A stretch of DNA of 64,000 nt from Cyclobacteriaceae bacterium (GTDB lineage Bacteria; Bacteroidota; Bacteroidia; Cytophagales; Cyclobacteriaceae). Positions 1 to 5,312 of this stretch are shown here, in pieces (position 1 is the stretch's first letter; the number at the start of each line of letters is the position of its first letter). The DNA is taken from positions 620,001 through 684,000 of the forward strand of contig JABFRS010000002.1 in the NCBI GenBank assembly GCA_013141055.1. Reading direction: 5' to 3'. A program made the position numbers and the translations under genes. The notes below the pieces were generated by a model. That model did not search any database. It had not been told where the DNA came from and saw only the letters and a list, made by a program, of their open reading frames with translations.

Positions 1-372
1 TACCGTTGCCGTTGCTACACCGTGCTGACCTGCACCAGTCTCCGCGATGATTTTTTTCTTACCCAATCGCCTGGCCAAAAGTATCTGACCAATTGTATTG
101 TTAATCTTATGAGCACCGGTATGACAAAGGTCCTCCCTCTTTAAATAGATTTTTGTTTTGTACTGCTCTGATAATCTTGAGGCGAAATACAAAGGCGTAG
201 GTCGTCCGACATAATCCTTCAGCAGTTTATGGAATTTCTTCTGAAATTCGGGTGAATAGATGATGCTTAAGTAACTCTGACGGAGCTCTTCAACGTTCGG
301 ATAAAGCATTTCAGGAATGAATGCTCCCCCGAACTGACCATAGTACCCTCTTTCATTTACTGCGTAACTCAT
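1..372 (-). CDS. trpB: Tryptophan synthase beta subunit, N-terminal part (truncated by window edge)
   Basis: The enzyme condenses indole with serine to make tryptophan, using PLP, in an alpha2beta2 complex in the cytoplasm. The 124 visible codons begin [20 protein letters not shown], as in TrpB, and contain [16 protein letters not shown], in which the Lys after AHK... is the PLP-binding lysine. The ATG (370-372) overlaps the trpF stop codon as ATGA, so translation is probably coupled. The C-terminal two thirds and any trpA lie outside the window. Identification is secure; only the 3' end is missing. Confidence 0.97.
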
Positions 373-995
373 ATCTGCACTAGTTTTTTAATCAAGCCAA
401 CATCTTTTACTCCAACCGCCTTTTCCACTCCACTATTAACATCAATCGCATAAAGATTCATATCCGAAAGGTTTTTTATATTCATAATATTCAAGGGAGA
501 AATTCCACCACTTAAAAAAAACGGAATCTCCTGATCATAATTCTTTAGCAAATCCCACTGAAATGTAATTCCATTACCGCCGAAATCCTTACCCTTCGTA
601 TCAAATAAGAAATAGTTAACGCTTTTTTTGTAGTTGAGGGTTGTTTGAAAATCAAATTCGTTTCCTACAGCAAACGCTTTTATGATCTCAAATCCTTTTT
701 CCTTTAACTCATCACATTGCTGAGGTGATTCATCTCCATGAAGTTGAATCAGATTAAGAGAATGTTCTGTGGCTGTGTCAGCAATCTCTTCCGTTGACTG
801 ATTAACAAATACACCCACTCTTTTAATATCCCTTGATAGCGAATCAGGGATTGCAAAATCTTTTCCAACAAAGCGCTTCGAACCTTGATAAAAAATAAAG
901 CCCATATAGTCAGGATGTAACGCAGCAACATCCAGAATATTTCCAGCGTCCCGCATTCCACAGACCTTTAGCTTTATCTTTTCTAATGAATTCAT
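369..995 (-). CDS. trpF: Phosphoribosylanthranilate isomerase
   Basis: This TIM-barrel enzyme converts N-(5-phosphoribosyl)anthranilate to CdRP, the third committed step of tryptophan synthesis. The 208-aa length is normal for a monofunctional TrpF. The motif KVCGMRD near the N-terminus carries the catalytic Cys12, [12 protein letters not shown] carries the catalytic Asp132, and FLSGGI is the phosphate-binding loop. The ATG overlaps the trpC stop codon by one base (TAATG) and its own TGA overlaps the trpB start. TrpC and TrpF are separate here, unlike the enterobacterial fusion. Confidence 0.97.
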
Positions 996-1792
996 TACCC
1001 GATTTTCCCCCCTAACTCATTAATAAACTTCAAGGCTCCCGCTCCAGGATCCTTTTGCTCCATAAAAGTTTGTCCCATTAAAAAACCCCGGAATCCATAA
1101 CTTTTCAGTTCAACAATTGCCTGCACAGAATCAATCCCACTTTCAGAAATTTTTATTACTTCTTCCGGAATGATTCTCGCCAGCTGTTTGCTCGCTTCAA
1201 TACTTACTTCAAAAGTCTTCAGATTCCGATTGTTCACACCAATGATATCAACATTAGCATTTAGATTATTTATTAGCTCTTCCTCATTATGAACTTCCAT
1301 TAAAACTTCCAGGTGAAGAGAATGCGCCAGCGAGCAAAGACTTTTCAATTGATCCGGCGATAGCATTGCTGCAATGAGCAATATAACATCTGCCCCCATC
1401 GCTTTAGCTTCAATAATTTGGTACTCATCCAGAATAAAATCCTTTCGCAGGATGGGACATGCATTCACTTCTCTTCCATTGATCAGATCCTGACTATTTC
1501 CTCCAAAGAATTCTGAATCTGTAAGAATAGAAAGCGCTGATGCCCCTGCCGCTATATATCCCTGAGTGACTTCTTCGACTAAAACTTCAGCATTTATAAT
1601 TCCCTTTGAAGGTGACCTACGCTTGAATTCTGCTATTATGCCATGACGATCTTCTCTCAGCAATTCCTTTTTAAGTGAGATCGTTGGCCGCGTCCAATAC
1701 TTCATCTTCTCCAACATGACCTCCGGAGAAGCCAGCTTACGCTCAGCGATTTCCTTAAGTTTATACTCAACGATCTTATCAAGTATGTTCAT
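995..1792 (-). CDS. trpC: Indole-3-glycerol-phosphate synthase
   Basis: The enzyme closes the pyrrole ring of CdRP to form indole-3-glycerol phosphate. The 265-aa TIM barrel shows IIAEFKRRSPSKG (substrate-binding and catalytic Lys), ILRKDFILDEYQI (second catalytic Lys), the NNRNLKTF motif and the SESGI phosphate loop in the expected order. ATG at 1790-1792 overlaps the trpD stop (ATGA) and the gene ends one base into trpF. It sits fourth among the structural genes of the operon and should be transcribed only with it. Confidence 0.97.
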   Translation of the reverse strand: MNILDKIVEYKLKEIAERKLASPEVMLEKMKYWTRPTISLKKELLREDRHGIIAEFKRRSPSKGIINAEVLVEEVTQGYIAAGASALSILTDSEFFGGNSQDLINGREVNACPILRKDFILDEYQIIEAKAMGADVILLIAAMLSPDQLKSLCSLAHSLHLEVLMEVHNEEELINNLNANVDIIGVNNRNLKTFEVSIEASKQLARIIPEEVIKISESGIDSVQAIVELKSYGFRGFLMGQTFMEQKDPGAGALKFINELGGKIG

Positions 1793-2775
1793 TTTTCAAT
1801 AAGCTTTTTAAATGCAAGATGAGCCATTCCTGATTCAAGAGATTCCTTTGCTTTGCCGAAAGCGTTTTCCATGCCAGACTTACGATCCGCGCAATATAAT
1901 GCCATACCAGCATTTGCAATCACTACATTATTCTGAGCCTGAGTTCCCTCTCCTTTCAGAATTTTCAAAAAGATCTTTGCTGACTCCTCAACTGTTGATC
2001 CACCTTTGATCTCTTCAAATTTGATCTCACTCATCCCCAGATCTTCGGGCTCATAAACTTTTTCACCTTCATTGCTAAAAACTTTAATTGGCCCTGTGAG
2101 CGAAATCTCATCAAAGCCTTTCAGATCATGCAGGATGACGAATTCTTTCTTAGAATTCTGATAGAGATATCCATACTGTCTGGCGAGTTCAAGACTAAAA
2201 ACCCCCACCAATTGCCTTCTTGGAAAAGCCGGATTTACCATCGGCCCTAGCATATTGAAAAAGGTCTTTACACCCAGTTCCTTCCTGATGGGAGCAACAT
2301 TTTTCATCGCCGGATGAAAGAGCGGTGCATGCATGAAGAAGATGTTTGCACGTTCCAGACTTCGCTCAAGTTCTGAAATATCATTCGTGAACTTGTAACC
2401 AAAATACTCCAATACATTCGAAGACCCACTGACAGAAGATACTCCATAATTACCATGCTTGGCAACAGGCTGACCCGCGGCAGCAACTACAAATGAAGAC
2501 AATGTTGAAATATTAAAAGTATTCTTTCCATCACCGCCGGTTCCACAGACATCCATTACAGGCAAATCAAAATTTACAGGAACACACAATTCCAGCATGG
2601 CATCTCTGAACCCCTGAAGTTCCTCAATCGTGATGCCTCTCATCATGTAAACAGTCATGAATGCACTCATCTGGCTGGGGTTATACTTCCCCGATGCCAA
2701 CTCTACCAAGACCTGTCTTGCTGCGTCTTTACTAAGTGAGCGATGCTCAATCAATTCATTTAATATCTCTTTCAT
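1789..2775 (-). CDS. trpD: Anthranilate phosphoribosyltransferase
   Basis: The enzyme transfers phosphoribosyl from PRPP to anthranilate. Residues 76-84 (VCGTGGDGK) form the glycine-rich PRPP-binding loop and KHGNYGVSS follows, as in the family; 328 aa is a usual length. I chose the ATG at 2773-2775, two bases after the trpG stop, rather than an in-frame TTG two codons upstream. TrpD is not fused to TrpG here. Confidence 0.96.
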   Translation of the reverse strand: MKEILNELIEHRSLSKDAARQVLVELASGKYNPSQMSAFMTVYMMRGITIEELQGFRDAMLELCVPVNFDLPVMDVCGTGGDGKNTFNISTLSSFVVAAAGQPVAKHGNYGVSSVSGSSNVLEYFGYKFTNDISELERSLERANIFFMHAPLFHPAMKNVAPIRKELGVKTFFNMLGPMVNPAFPRRQLVGVFSLELARQYGYLYQNSKKEFVILHDLKGFDEISLTGPIKVFSNEGEKVYEPEDLGMSEIKFEEIKGGSTVEESAKIFLKILKGEGTQAQNNVVIANAGMALYCADRKSGMENAFGKAKESLESGMAHLAFKKLIEK

Positions 2776-2777
2776 AA

Positions 2778-3344
2778 TCAATTGTTCAGCCAGTTTTCAA
2801 TCAGCTTCTTTCCATGCTCTGTCATTATTGATTCAGGGTGAAACTGGACCCCCCTTACATCATACTTCTTATGGGCAATAGCCATGACCAATCCAATAAC
2901 ACTGACAGCAGTAATTTCAAGATCACCTTTGATGCTCTCAGGAACAACCGCCCAGGAATGATAATGTGTCGCGTCAAATTTCTCCGGGATGTTTTGAAAC
3001 AACTTCTCCGAACCTTTTGTTACCTGCATCTTTGAAGTAACTCCATGAAGAACATTGGGAAGATTAAAAAGCGTTGCCCCATAAACTTCTGCAATCGCCT
3101 GATGCCCCAGACAAACCCCAAGAATGCTCTTAGTAGGTCCATACGTTTTAATGACCTGCTTAAGAATTCCAGCTTCGTCCGGAATACCAGGGCCAGGGGA
3201 TAACAGTATCTTATCATACTTACCAACATCCTCAATGCTGATCTTATCATTTCTGAAAATATCCATTTCAAAACCAAACTCCCGGATAATATGTACCAGG
3301 TTATAGGTGAATGAATCATAATTATCCAATACCAGTATTTTCAT
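2778..3344 (-). CDS. trpG: Anthranilate synthase, glutamine amidotransferase component
   Basis: TrpG supplies ammonia from glutamine to TrpE. This 188-aa class I amidotransferase contains LLSPGPGIP (oxyanion region), GVCLGHQAI with nucleophile Cys78, and VQFHPESI with His169 and Glu171, completing the triad. The start MKILVLDNYDS matches the family; an in-frame ATG three codons upstream (3353) is possible. It lies 30 bp downstream of trpE and two bases before trpD. It might also serve folate synthesis as PabA, as in some bacteria, but the operon position argues for tryptophan. Confidence 0.95.
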   Translation of the reverse strand: MKILVLDNYDSFTYNLVHIIREFGFEMDIFRNDKISIEDVGKYDKILLSPGPGIPDEAGILKQVIKTYGPTKSILGVCLGHQAIAEVYGATLFNLPNVLHGVTSKMQVTKGSEKLFQNIPEKFDATHYHSWAVVPESIKGDLEITAVSVIGLVMAIAHKKYDVRGVQFHPESIMTEHGKKLIENWLNN

Positions 3345-3374
3345 AAGTCCCATTATATTTCTCTTCTCTATTCC

Positions 3375-4787
3375 TTAAATTCCTTCAGCCATGGTGATGG
3401 CTCTTCTCAATGCCTCTAGTTTATTATTAACTTCCTGCAGTTCACTTGCCGGAATTGATTTGGCCACAACCCCTGCTCCTGCCTGGCATATAAGCTTGTT
3501 ATCCTTACTCAAAAATGTTCTGATCATGATCGCGTGATTGAAATCGCCGTTGAATCCCAGGAACCCTATCGCACCACCATAAAAGCTGCGATTAATATTC
3601 TCATACTTGTTAATGAGCGTCATTGCCTGATGCTTAGGTGCGCCTGACAACGTTCCTGCCGGAAAAGTATCAGCCGCAAGCTTTAAAGGCGATTTCCCTC
3701 TTCTTAAAGTGCCCGATACCTTTGACACCAAATGAATAACGTGTGAATAATACTGTATCTCCTTAAATACTTCTACCGTCACTTCATCTGAATCTCTTGC
3801 TAGATCATTTCTCGCAAGATCCACTAACATCACATGTTCAGCATTTTCTTTTTCATCCTTTGATAGTCTTGCTGCCAGTTCAGAATCTTCCTTGTCATTT
3901 CCAGATCTTCTGAAAGTCCCAGCGATGGGGAAGATATTCGCTACACCGCCTTTGATCTGAATCTGGGCCTCCGGTGAAGATCCAAATATCTTGAAGCTTC
4001 CGTAATCAAAATAAAAAAGATAAGGTGATGGATTGATCGAACGTAAAGCACGATACACATTGAACTCATCTCCCTTAAATTCTGTCACAAATCTCCTGGA
4101 AAGAACTATCTGAAATACATCTCCACGAAAACAGTGCTTTCTCCCTTCTCCAATCATTTGAAGAAACTCCTCATCTGTAACATTGGAAGTTTCTTTTTTT
4201 GTTGATTCAAATGGAAATGTTGAAAAGCGATTACTGTAAATGATCTTCTCCAGTTTTTCCAATCCATCTTTCTTGCCGTCAGAATCATTTTCTACTTCAG
4301 GAGTATGTTCGAAAAGTGTCAGCTCATTTGAAAAATGATCAACAATGATGACGTAGCGATAAACCTTGTAAAGAATATCAGGCACAAGTCTTTCCGAAAT
4401 TTCCAGGTTCACATCTTCAAAATACCGAACTGCATCGTACACCATATAACCAAACAATCCAGCAGACGCATACTTTTGTTGTGATTGATCTGCATCAAAG
4501 GAAAGTCTGAATTGATCCAGACTGCTCAATACCTGATCGCGCGAATCAATTTTAATCTTTGTAATAGTGTGATCCGGGAATTTCATTTCAATCATTTCAT
4601 CCCTCACCTGGAATGAGGCAATCGGGTCACAGCAAATGAAAGAGAGACTGTTCTCATGACCATGGTAATCCGAGCTTTCCAGAAGAATGCTTCCCGCAAA
4701 CACATCACGTAATTTGAGATAGATATTTACAGGCGTGAGCGTGTCCGCCAAAAGTTTCTTTGATTGTGTTGTCAGTTTATACTTCAT
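3375..4787 (-). CDS. trpE: Anthranilate synthase component I
   Basis: TrpE converts chorismate plus ammonia to anthranilate, the first committed step. The 470-aa protein has an N-terminal LLES-x10-S motif (residues 35-49), which in the family forms the tryptophan feedback-inhibition site, so the enzyme is predicted to be allosterically inhibited. The C-terminal chorismate-binding domain shows AGTFRRSGNDKEDSELA, VDLARNDLARDS, LSGAPKHQAM and GGAIGF. The ATG at 4787 is preferred; an upstream in-frame TTG (4796) is unlikely. The gene follows the attenuator described at 4813-4945. Confidence 0.97.
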   Translation of the reverse strand: MKYKLTTQSKKLLADTLTPVNIYLKLRDVFAGSILLESSDYHGHENSLSFICCDPIASFQVRDEMIEMKFPDHTITKIKIDSRDQVLSSLDQFRLSFDADQSQQKYASAGLFGYMVYDAVRYFEDVNLEISERLVPDILYKVYRYVIIVDHFSNELTLFEHTPEVENDSDGKKDGLEKLEKIIYSNRFSTFPFESTKKETSNVTDEEFLQMIGEGRKHCFRGDVFQIVLSRRFVTEFKGDEFNVYRALRSINPSPYLFYFDYGSFKIFGSSPEAQIQIKGGVANIFPIAGTFRRSGNDKEDSELAARLSKDEKENAEHVMLVDLARNDLARDSDEVTVEVFKEIQYYSHVIHLVSKVSGTLRRGKSPLKLAADTFPAGTLSGAPKHQAMTLINKYENINRSFYGGAIGFLGFNGDFNHAIMIRTFLSKDNKLICQAGAGVVAKSIPASELQEVNNKLEALRRAITMAEGI

Positions 4788-4812
4788 GTTTCTCAATTCA
4801 ATGTCAATAAAT

Positions 4813-4844
4813 AAAAAACCCGCCCCGATTATATCGGAGCGGGT
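4813..4844 (-). terminator. Intrinsic terminator of the trp attenuator
   Basis: Reading the minus strand, a 12-bp stem (positions 4818-4829 with 4833-4844, three-base loop) is followed by six T residues. One pair is G.U only in the minus-strand RNA, which supports that direction of use. It lies between the Trp-rich leader peptide and trpE, only about 25 bp before the trpE start, so readthrough is needed for trp expression. Confidence 0.92.
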
Positions 4845-4873
4845 CTTAGTTAGAAAATTTCTTTATAGAAAGT

Positions 4874-4945
4874 TTATACCACAGCCATACACCGATCGAA
4901 ATTCGAACGATGCCACCACCATGCTGTTGTATTGATATTCTTCAT
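4874..4945 (-). CDS. trpL: trp operon leader peptide
   Basis: A 23-codon ORF encodes a peptide whose residues 9-11 are three consecutive tryptophans (A-W-W-W-H), in a genome where Trp codons are rare. It starts with ATG two bases after the THX stop codon and ends with TAA 30 bases before the terminator stem. Under classical attenuation, scarce charged tRNA-Trp stalls the ribosome on the UGG run and changes leader RNA folding so that the terminator does not form. Short length, Trp run, position and following terminator make the call strong. It is too short for ordinary gene finders. Confidence 0.92.
   Translation of the reverse strand: MKNINTTAWWWHRSNFDRCMAVV
4890..4912 (-). promoter_or_regulatory. 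Candidate pause hairpin (1:2) and antiterminator segment of the trp leader RNA
   Basis: Immediately after the last Trp codon the leader RNA can pair CAUCG (4908-4912) with CGGUG (4890-4894), extended after a U-U mismatch by UCG/CGA. Inside the 3' arm, AUCGG can alternatively pair with CCGAU in the 5' arm of the terminator, giving a five-base antiterminator core. A ribosome stalled on the UGG codons would block the first pairing and favour the second. The geometry fits, but the antiterminator is short and was folded by eye only. Confidence 0.5.
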
Positions 4946-4947
4946 GA

Positions 4948-5136
4948 TTATTCTGCCGCTTCTTTCTTGCGAGGAGCACGTTTTGCCTTAGGCTTTTCTT
5001 CTACTGCTGCAGCACTTGCTGGCTTGGTAGAAGTAACTCTTTTCAATCTTGCCTTGATAGCCTTCTTGTTTCTGGATACACCGTATGAACCGTTCCAGAC
5101 TTTACCTTTCTTTGATTTTCTGTCTCCCCTACCCAT
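4948..5136 (-). CDS. 30S ribosomal protein THX family
   Basis: This 62-aa basic protein begins MGRGDRKSKKGKVWNGSYG, the hallmark of the THX (bTHX/S31e-like) small-subunit protein, which binds at the top of the 30S head in Thermus. The conserved core is residues 1-30; the C-terminus is a Lys/Ala/Glu-rich tail typical of Bacteroidota versions. It is the first gene after a good promoter and its stop codon lies two bases before the trp leader peptide, so it is probably the first cistron of the trp transcript and unaffected by attenuation. Confidence 0.85.
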   Translation of the reverse strand: MGRGDRKSKKGKVWNGSYGVSRNKKAIKARLKRVTSTKPASAAAVEEKPKAKRAPRKKEAAE

Positions 5137-5161
5137 TGTTTTAAAATTATTAATATTCCGG

Positions 5162-5192
5162 CAAGTATAGTCAGAGGGAACAAATTAACAAA
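5162..5192 (-). promoter_or_regulatory. Promoter for THX-trpL-trpEGDCFB
   Basis: On the minus strand TTTG (5189-5192) is followed after exactly 19 bp by TATACTTG (5162-5169). The Bacteroidota primary-sigma consensus is TTTG, about 19-21 bp, TAnnTTTG, so this is an 11 of 12 match. Transcription would start near 5155, about 20 bases before the THX start. Confidence 0.7.
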
Positions 5193-5312
5193 ATCATTGT
5201 TTTCATTAATGACAGAAATAGCTCAAATAGCCTCCAAATCGTCATTCATAACTAATTGATGCTTATCGGTCTATCTGTTAATTTGGAACCCGGTAACGAT
5301 TCACCTTTCAAT

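Follow-up and report, generated by a model that had tools for sequence, protein, structure and literature searches.

How is the tryptophan operon of this Cyclobacteriaceae bacterium regulated, and from which promoter is it transcribed? In the window (the whole stretch of DNA that we analyzed, 64,000 nucleotides long), the minus strand carries, in this order, promoter-like boxes, the ribosomal protein gene thx, a short leader gene (trpL), a predicted terminator, and trpE-G-D-C-F. From sequence comparison, we consider it highly probable that trpL belongs to a ribosome-mediated trp attenuator that is reached by readthrough from the thx promoter. Our confidence in ribosome-mediated attenuation, taken by itself, is slightly greater still.

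All of the features discussed here lie on the minus strand. The presumed start site for thx, trpL, and the trp genes is served by a -33 box, TTTG (5189..5192), located 19 nt before a -7 box, TATACTTG (5162..5169), the -7-like core of which is present in relatives; we take these boxes to represent the Bacteroidota-type two-box (-33/-7) consensus. The thx gene (4948..5136) encodes the 62-residue 30S ribosomal protein THX (TIGR04560, 48.7 bits; cut-off, 26). Its product scores barely below the Pfam Thx cut-off (29.6 versus 29.7 bits) and is the single THX match in the genome at E<=0.1. The first gene behind the attenuator is trpE (anthranilate synthase component I; 3375..4787), confirming the placement just before trpE that was proposed in the first-pass annotation. 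The best NCBIfam match of trpE, TIGR00564, is below its cut-off (418.5 versus 517.7 bits), and we accept the identification because trpE models are the top matches and the operon context is clear. The downstream genes are trpG (glutamine amidotransferase of anthranilate synthase; 2778..3353; TIGR00566, 173.4 bits; cut-off, 121.05), trpD (anthranilate phosphoribosyltransferase; 1789..2781; TIGR01245, 324.7 bits; cut-off, 199.05), trpC (indole-3-glycerol phosphate synthase; 995..1792; NF001377, 289.7 bits; cut-off, 260), and trpF (phosphoribosylanthranilate isomerase; 369..995; PF00697, 148.6 bits; cut-off, 22.7). The genome (G000) consists of two large contigs, C1 (3.26 Mb) and C2 (1.38 Mb), and yielded no Trp_repressor match at E<=0.001.

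The leader gene trpL (4874..4945) runs from an ATG at 4945-4943, 2 nt past the thx stop codon, to a TAA at 4876-4874 and encodes the peptide MKNINTTAWWWHRSNFDRCMAVV. Its codons 9-11 are UGG UGG UGG (4913..4921), and the 23-codon leader with Trp-Trp-Trp at these positions can be read as originally described. On neither strand of the window does any other open reading frame shorter than 60 codons combine a start codon with three UGG codons in a row. Genome-wide, a search limited to TGGTGGTGGCAY returned three places, the window leader and two others, and both of the latter were rejected as leaders: one has no start codon in frame, and the other lies out of frame within a longer gene. A run of five His occurs at 19 places in the genome; 12 loci were inspected along with the one in the window, and no clear candidate for a leader before his genes was seen among them.

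Comparison with relatives establishes the leader and its Trp run. We scored as positive any locus with a short open reading frame containing clustered Trp codons plus a terminator, at most 330 nt from trpE. Within the genus, many genomes of which are drafts, trpE was matched at E<=1e-80 in 50 of 58 genomes; 48 of these loci were taken (leaving aside G010 and G022) and two (L017 and L029) were removed as contig ends, and all of the 46 readable loci carry a Trp-cluster leader and a terminator before trpE. Under a stricter rule of three Trp in five residues, 43 of the 46 pass, because Gly or Cys replaces one Trp of the three in L018, L023, and L026. Leader and terminator are also present in 75 of 78 loci from other genera of the family (sampled from 75 of the 92 nongenus genomes with a match, plus 3 from another search), in 32 of 55 from the order outside the family (70 genomes with a match, 56 loci taken, L152 dropped as a contig end), in 22 of 27 from the class outside the order (all genomes with a match), and in 22 of 36 from other classes of the phylum (96 with a match, 37 taken, L260 dropped for lack of a tblastn match). 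Duplicate loci (L059, L061, and L204) were excluded. Part of the failing loci, such as L075, L098, L100, and L148, have a Trp run without a terminator as defined by the rule. Among the titled loci, which are the best 80 of 584 relatives by TrpE closeness, 77 pass. Reverse complements gave no positives, and dinucleotide shuffles gave 1 in 4,840 with two Trp and 0 in 4,840 with three. In alignment A1 (see below), the nine Trp-codon columns are invariant across 27 sequences, and the residues 3' of the Trp run vary between genera. The proposal of an E. coli-type trp attenuator, together with the conservation in related Cytophagales on which it had been made to depend, is therefore supported in both the genus and the family.

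The terminator and the leader hairpins are likewise supported by comparison. An intrinsic terminator (4813..4844) is predicted between trpL and the first trp gene, with a hairpin at 4844-4818, a 3-nt loop, and U's continuing to 4813. It had been described as a perfect 12-bp stem with a U-tract: all 12 pairs form and the U's are there, but the stem is not perfect Watson-Crick, because one of the 12 pairs is G-U. The predicted folding energy is -22.4 kcal/mol for 4845-4813 (z = -5.8) and -45.7 for the whole leader (z = -5.5), and 0 of 200 shuffles were as stable in either case. The leader fold includes a hairpin directly after the Trp codons.

Of 54 sequences prepared, 47 were divided by eye, according to their terminator and region 2, into alignments A1 (27 sequences of the window's type) and A2 (20 of a second type); L005, L011, L016, L020, L023, L032, and L050 were excluded. 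RNAalifold returned helices P1 and P2 and a partial terminator for A1, and P2, part of the outer stem, and the terminator for A2. The 5' arm of P1 (4918..4926) overlaps the first Trp codons and pairs with 4877..4885; P2, the 1:2 hairpin, has a 5' arm directly 3' of the Trp codons (4904..4913) and a 3' arm that overlaps antiterminator region 2 (4889..4898). In the window, 7 of the 9 consensus-register pairs of P1 form, the MFE fold taking a shifted register, as do 9 of the 10 pairs of P2. In counts that used the structure derived from that same alignment, P1 has 22 cells changed on both sides and P2 has 20, versus shuffled means of 9.9 and 5.6; for each helix, 0 of 500 shuffles reached this level, and slid controls gave lower values. 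Doubly changed pairs are near the shuffle level (4 versus 2.9 for P1 and 3 versus 1.5 for P2), and the number of further pair types does not clearly exceed that of shuffles. Since P1 contains the first Trp codons, a ribosome located there must open it.

The antiterminator is a more delicate matter. Among relatives, region 2 and the terminator 5' arm (region 3) are complementary, as GAUCGG/CCGAUC in most loci of the window's type, as GUGARCAGC facing GCUGUUCAC in the second type, and through other sequences elsewhere. In the second type, the UGA stop codon of the leader falls within region 2, so that a ribosome completing the leader would cover this region. The candidate antiterminator of the window pairs AUCGG (4892..4896) with CCGAU (4833..4837), within the terminator 5' arm. 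The short antiterminator pairing put forward in the first-pass annotation thus exists as 5 contiguous bp, which makes the window the only locus of the genus with fewer than 6, and is longer in relatives, but its duplex energy is no better than that of shuffled sequences (P = 0.39). A helix of at least 6 contiguous bp is available to 45 of the 46 loci in the genus and to 65 of the 75 in the family; the corresponding rates for shuffled sequences are 45% and 55%, which makes the test permissive. Duplex energy reaches P<0.05 in 39 of 46 loci of the genus, 36 of 75 of the family, 22 of 32 of the order, 6 of 22 of the class, and 12 of 23 of other classes. In the genus, 43 of 46 loci have the helix start 12 to 20 nt past the final Trp codon; the 121 genus and family loci contain 86 distinct helices. 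Covariation in the antiterminator columns does not exceed that of shuffles within either structural type (A1 or A2), where pairing is partly built in by the by-eye sorting on terminator and region 2. Support for the candidate antiterminator comes not from covariation but solely from how many different helices preserve the pairing. For the window itself, the one ground for crediting it is that relatives keep one, and we read this as an antiterminator that is real, but weak in the window's genome.

We infer cotranscription, reinitiation, termination in vivo, and a response to tryptophan, which would work together as follows. Transcription would most likely start upstream of thx and continue through it into trpL, which would be translated, perhaps by ribosomes restarting just past the thx stop codon. 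With ample Trp-tRNA(Trp), the ribosome would clear the UGG codons and cover region 2 (4898-4889); no antiterminator could form, the terminator (4844-4813) would fold, and the transcript would end after thx-trpL. With charged Trp-tRNA scarce, the ribosome would stall at codons 9-11 with P1 and P2 opened, leaving region 2 free to pair with the terminator 5' arm, and RNA polymerase would continue into trpE-G-D-C-F.

The adjacency of trpL to thx is shared by 53 loci (45 in the genus and 8 others), which we call fused. With the gap measured to the furthest-upstream in-frame leader ATG, 46 of them have -4 to +6 nt between thx and trpL, 6 have 9 to 18 nt, and one (L032), in which the thx frame is disrupted, has 79 nt. 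Comparison of the fused loci also brings out the promoter motif on the thx side: at most 90 nt upstream of thx, the two-box motif is found in 45 of 51 (shuffles, 1.8%) and the -7-like core in 51 of 51 (shuffles, 10%), with L032 and L033 excluded for lack of an identified thx start.

The strongest competing explanation, which we nevertheless judge unlikely, is a genuine trp attenuator driven by its own promoter inside thx, with thx a mere neighbor rather than the first gene of the operon. Unfused relatives do carry the motif directly before the leader: it lies 15 to 130 nt before the Trp codons in 41 of 67 family loci, 11 of 32 in the order, 9 of 22 in the class, and 0 of 23 in other classes. 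The motif search misses 26 of the 67, and a divergent promoter could therefore escape it; with all 23 other-class loci missed as well, absence alone is weak evidence. Against this explanation, the same interval lacks the two-box motif in all 53 fused loci, and so does the thx coding region in all 51 examined, where the -7-like core alone appears in 1 (a motif test only). In the nine unfused family loci with thx upstream, a looser pattern places the motif between thx and the leader in six and not in L070, L111, and L117; the remaining unfused loci mostly have no THX match in the upstream stretch searched.

The phylogenetic distribution also bears on the origin of the fusion. In a quickly built TrpE tree with 97 rows, from which L017 and L029 were omitted and for which fused and unfused labels were assigned by hand, the fused rows form one clade with a support of 100, composed of 40 fused rows and the unfused L011. 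One gain and one loss account for this pattern, versus about 31 changes for shuffled labels. L011 (genome G019) has no thx at this place and carries a thx-promoter-like motif about 60 nt before its leader, which argues against a separate promoter inside thx; the THX match of this genome lies on another contig. Because the genome is an 84% complete draft, the reversal is suggestive only. Transcription from the thx promoter, the reading that we favor, is consistent with these comparisons, and trpL and the trp genes appear to share that promoter in this bacterium and its close relatives. We regard the attenuator as having become, if the genes are cotranscribed, the regulated 3' terminus of the transcription unit of a ribosomal protein gene. 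This fusion, overlooked in the first-pass annotation, is a more unusual feature than the attenuator itself. It would illustrate a route by which an attenuator loses its own promoter and comes to form a regulated 3' boundary for a housekeeping gene unrelated to it, and it would allow leader function to be tested via termination-reinitiation.

Ribosome-mediated attenuation depends on temporal coupling between transcription and translation. A tentative extension, toward which we lean less than away from it, is that trpL is translated mainly by ribosomes fresh from thx, in which case the attenuator would read both Trp-tRNA charging and thx translation. If so, a single transcript would link ribosome synthesis and tryptophan synthesis in series, and the timing usually set by pausing would instead come from a ribosome that already follows RNA polymerase.

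Other explanations concern the mechanism itself. The leader could control Rho access or trpE translation initiation instead of intrinsic termination, and it might do both; as a replacement for attenuation we find this quite improbable, given the strong hairpin with its U-tract before the trpE start and the recurrence of the terminator in relatives. Slightly less probable again is a TnaC-like device, in which the leader peptide senses free tryptophan by nascent-chain stalling. The layout, with a transcription decision after a short leader that contains Trp, would suit it, but TnaC controls the tryptophanase operon (PMC8429421), whereas a biosynthetic operon lies downstream here; moreover, the Trp run with its alternative helices fits charged-tRNA sensing, and the residues past the run vary between genera. 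Least likely of all, and already contradicted by sequence comparison, is the view that the hairpin, which starts about 100 nt past thx and would terminate the thx transcript, serves no other purpose and stands beside a chance Trp run, since leader, Trp run, and terminator are found in 46 of 46 genus loci, leader and terminator also occur in genomes with no THX match near trpE, and P1 and P2 covary.

Two Trp-leader attenuators in series before trpE, each with its own terminator, were observed at nine loci: L070, L112, L143, L144, and L181 (by script) and L186 (by eye) in family f1, and L270 (Fulvivirga marina), L272, and L343 among the 80 titled loci. The candidates at two further flagged loci, L094 and L274, lie far upstream and look like false positives.

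How does this RNA relate to described families? At gathering level, Rfam reported nothing in the window except one tRNA, and no T-box was matched at gathering in the window or at E<=10 in 4300-5300. RF00513 (Trp_leader) scored 23.4 bits against a gathering threshold of 41 (E = 0.039 in a 1,001-base search), which is below threshold, and RF01692 (Bacteroid-trp; threshold, 49 bits) gave 0 matches in the genome at E<=10. In the phylum sample, searched with the stricter filters applied to more than 40 genomes, RF01692 matched 15 of 148 genomes at E<=0.01, 11 of them over the cut-off; 14 of the 15 belong to family f25, and the 6 sampled genomes of the window's order gave none. All 15 match loci have a short Trp-Trp-Trp open reading frame at the model start, indicating that RF01692 describes a device of the same kind. 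In genome G379, one such match, likewise with a Trp-Trp-Trp leader (L226, contig C8), lies on a contig other than that of the trpE found and is perhaps a second Trp attenuator of this genome. RF01692 matches fall mainly in one family, whereas the Trp leader with a terminator is found across much of the phylum. This suggests that trp attenuation is common there, far beyond the present Rfam model, and a broader Bacteroidota trp-leader model could be built.

Older comparative work on trp regulation reportedly exists. Our literature search on Cytophagales attenuators returned no match. Among the matches listed for tandem trp attenuators, for a link between THX and tryptophan, and for coupled leaders, no title or abstract opening describes the thx-trpL arrangement, and none of those on the THX link contains the THX phrase itself. 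More broadly, the thx-trpL fusion is not described among the literature matches listed, which included few subscription papers. The available parts of PMC7366714, PMC4833913, and PMC8305728 mention no trp leader for this group. The mechanism is nonetheless already known in the phylum, as indicated by the RF01692 leaders and by precedents in three papers: Weinberg et al. listed Bacteroid-trp in 2010 among the probable cis-regulatory RNAs of Bacteroidetes (PMC2864571), in Flavobacterium psychrophilum it was compared with the trp leader of E. coli, with the trp operon named (PMC6414381), and clues to leader-peptide attenuation before amino-acid operons were reported in the same species (PMC9723704). 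Such attenuators, whose leaders the first-pass annotation had called rarely annotated in Bacteroidota, are hence not new to the phylum. F. psychrophilum shares with our bacterium its phylum and the proposed leader-peptide attenuation; it belongs to another family, and the parts of PMC9723704 and PMC6414381 available to us leave a thx fusion unmentioned.

Bacteroid-trp (RF01692) resembles the window RNA in its Bacteroidota hosts and short Trp-Trp-Trp leader, but the model misses the window's genome and its matches are almost all in f25. The RNA described here falls outside this model, and its fusion to thx is the feature that the literature matches listed do not describe. The E. coli trp leader combines tandem Trp codons, a 1:2 hairpin over them, a 2:3 antiterminator, and a 3:4 terminator before trpE. 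The window's predicted attenuator has the same plan as this leader and RF00513, with a short Trp-run leader, a 1:2 hairpin, a 3:4 terminator, a candidate 2:3 pairing that is weak in the window, and a position before trpE, yet it differs in its three tandem Trp codons, in its fusion to an upstream ribosomal protein gene, and in a genome with no TrpR-family match. Closest to home, the unfused attenuators of the family (e.g., L077, L128, and L186) share its leader, terminator, and trpE order, whereas their thx, where present, is located further upstream, with the promoter motif in between in six of nine loci.
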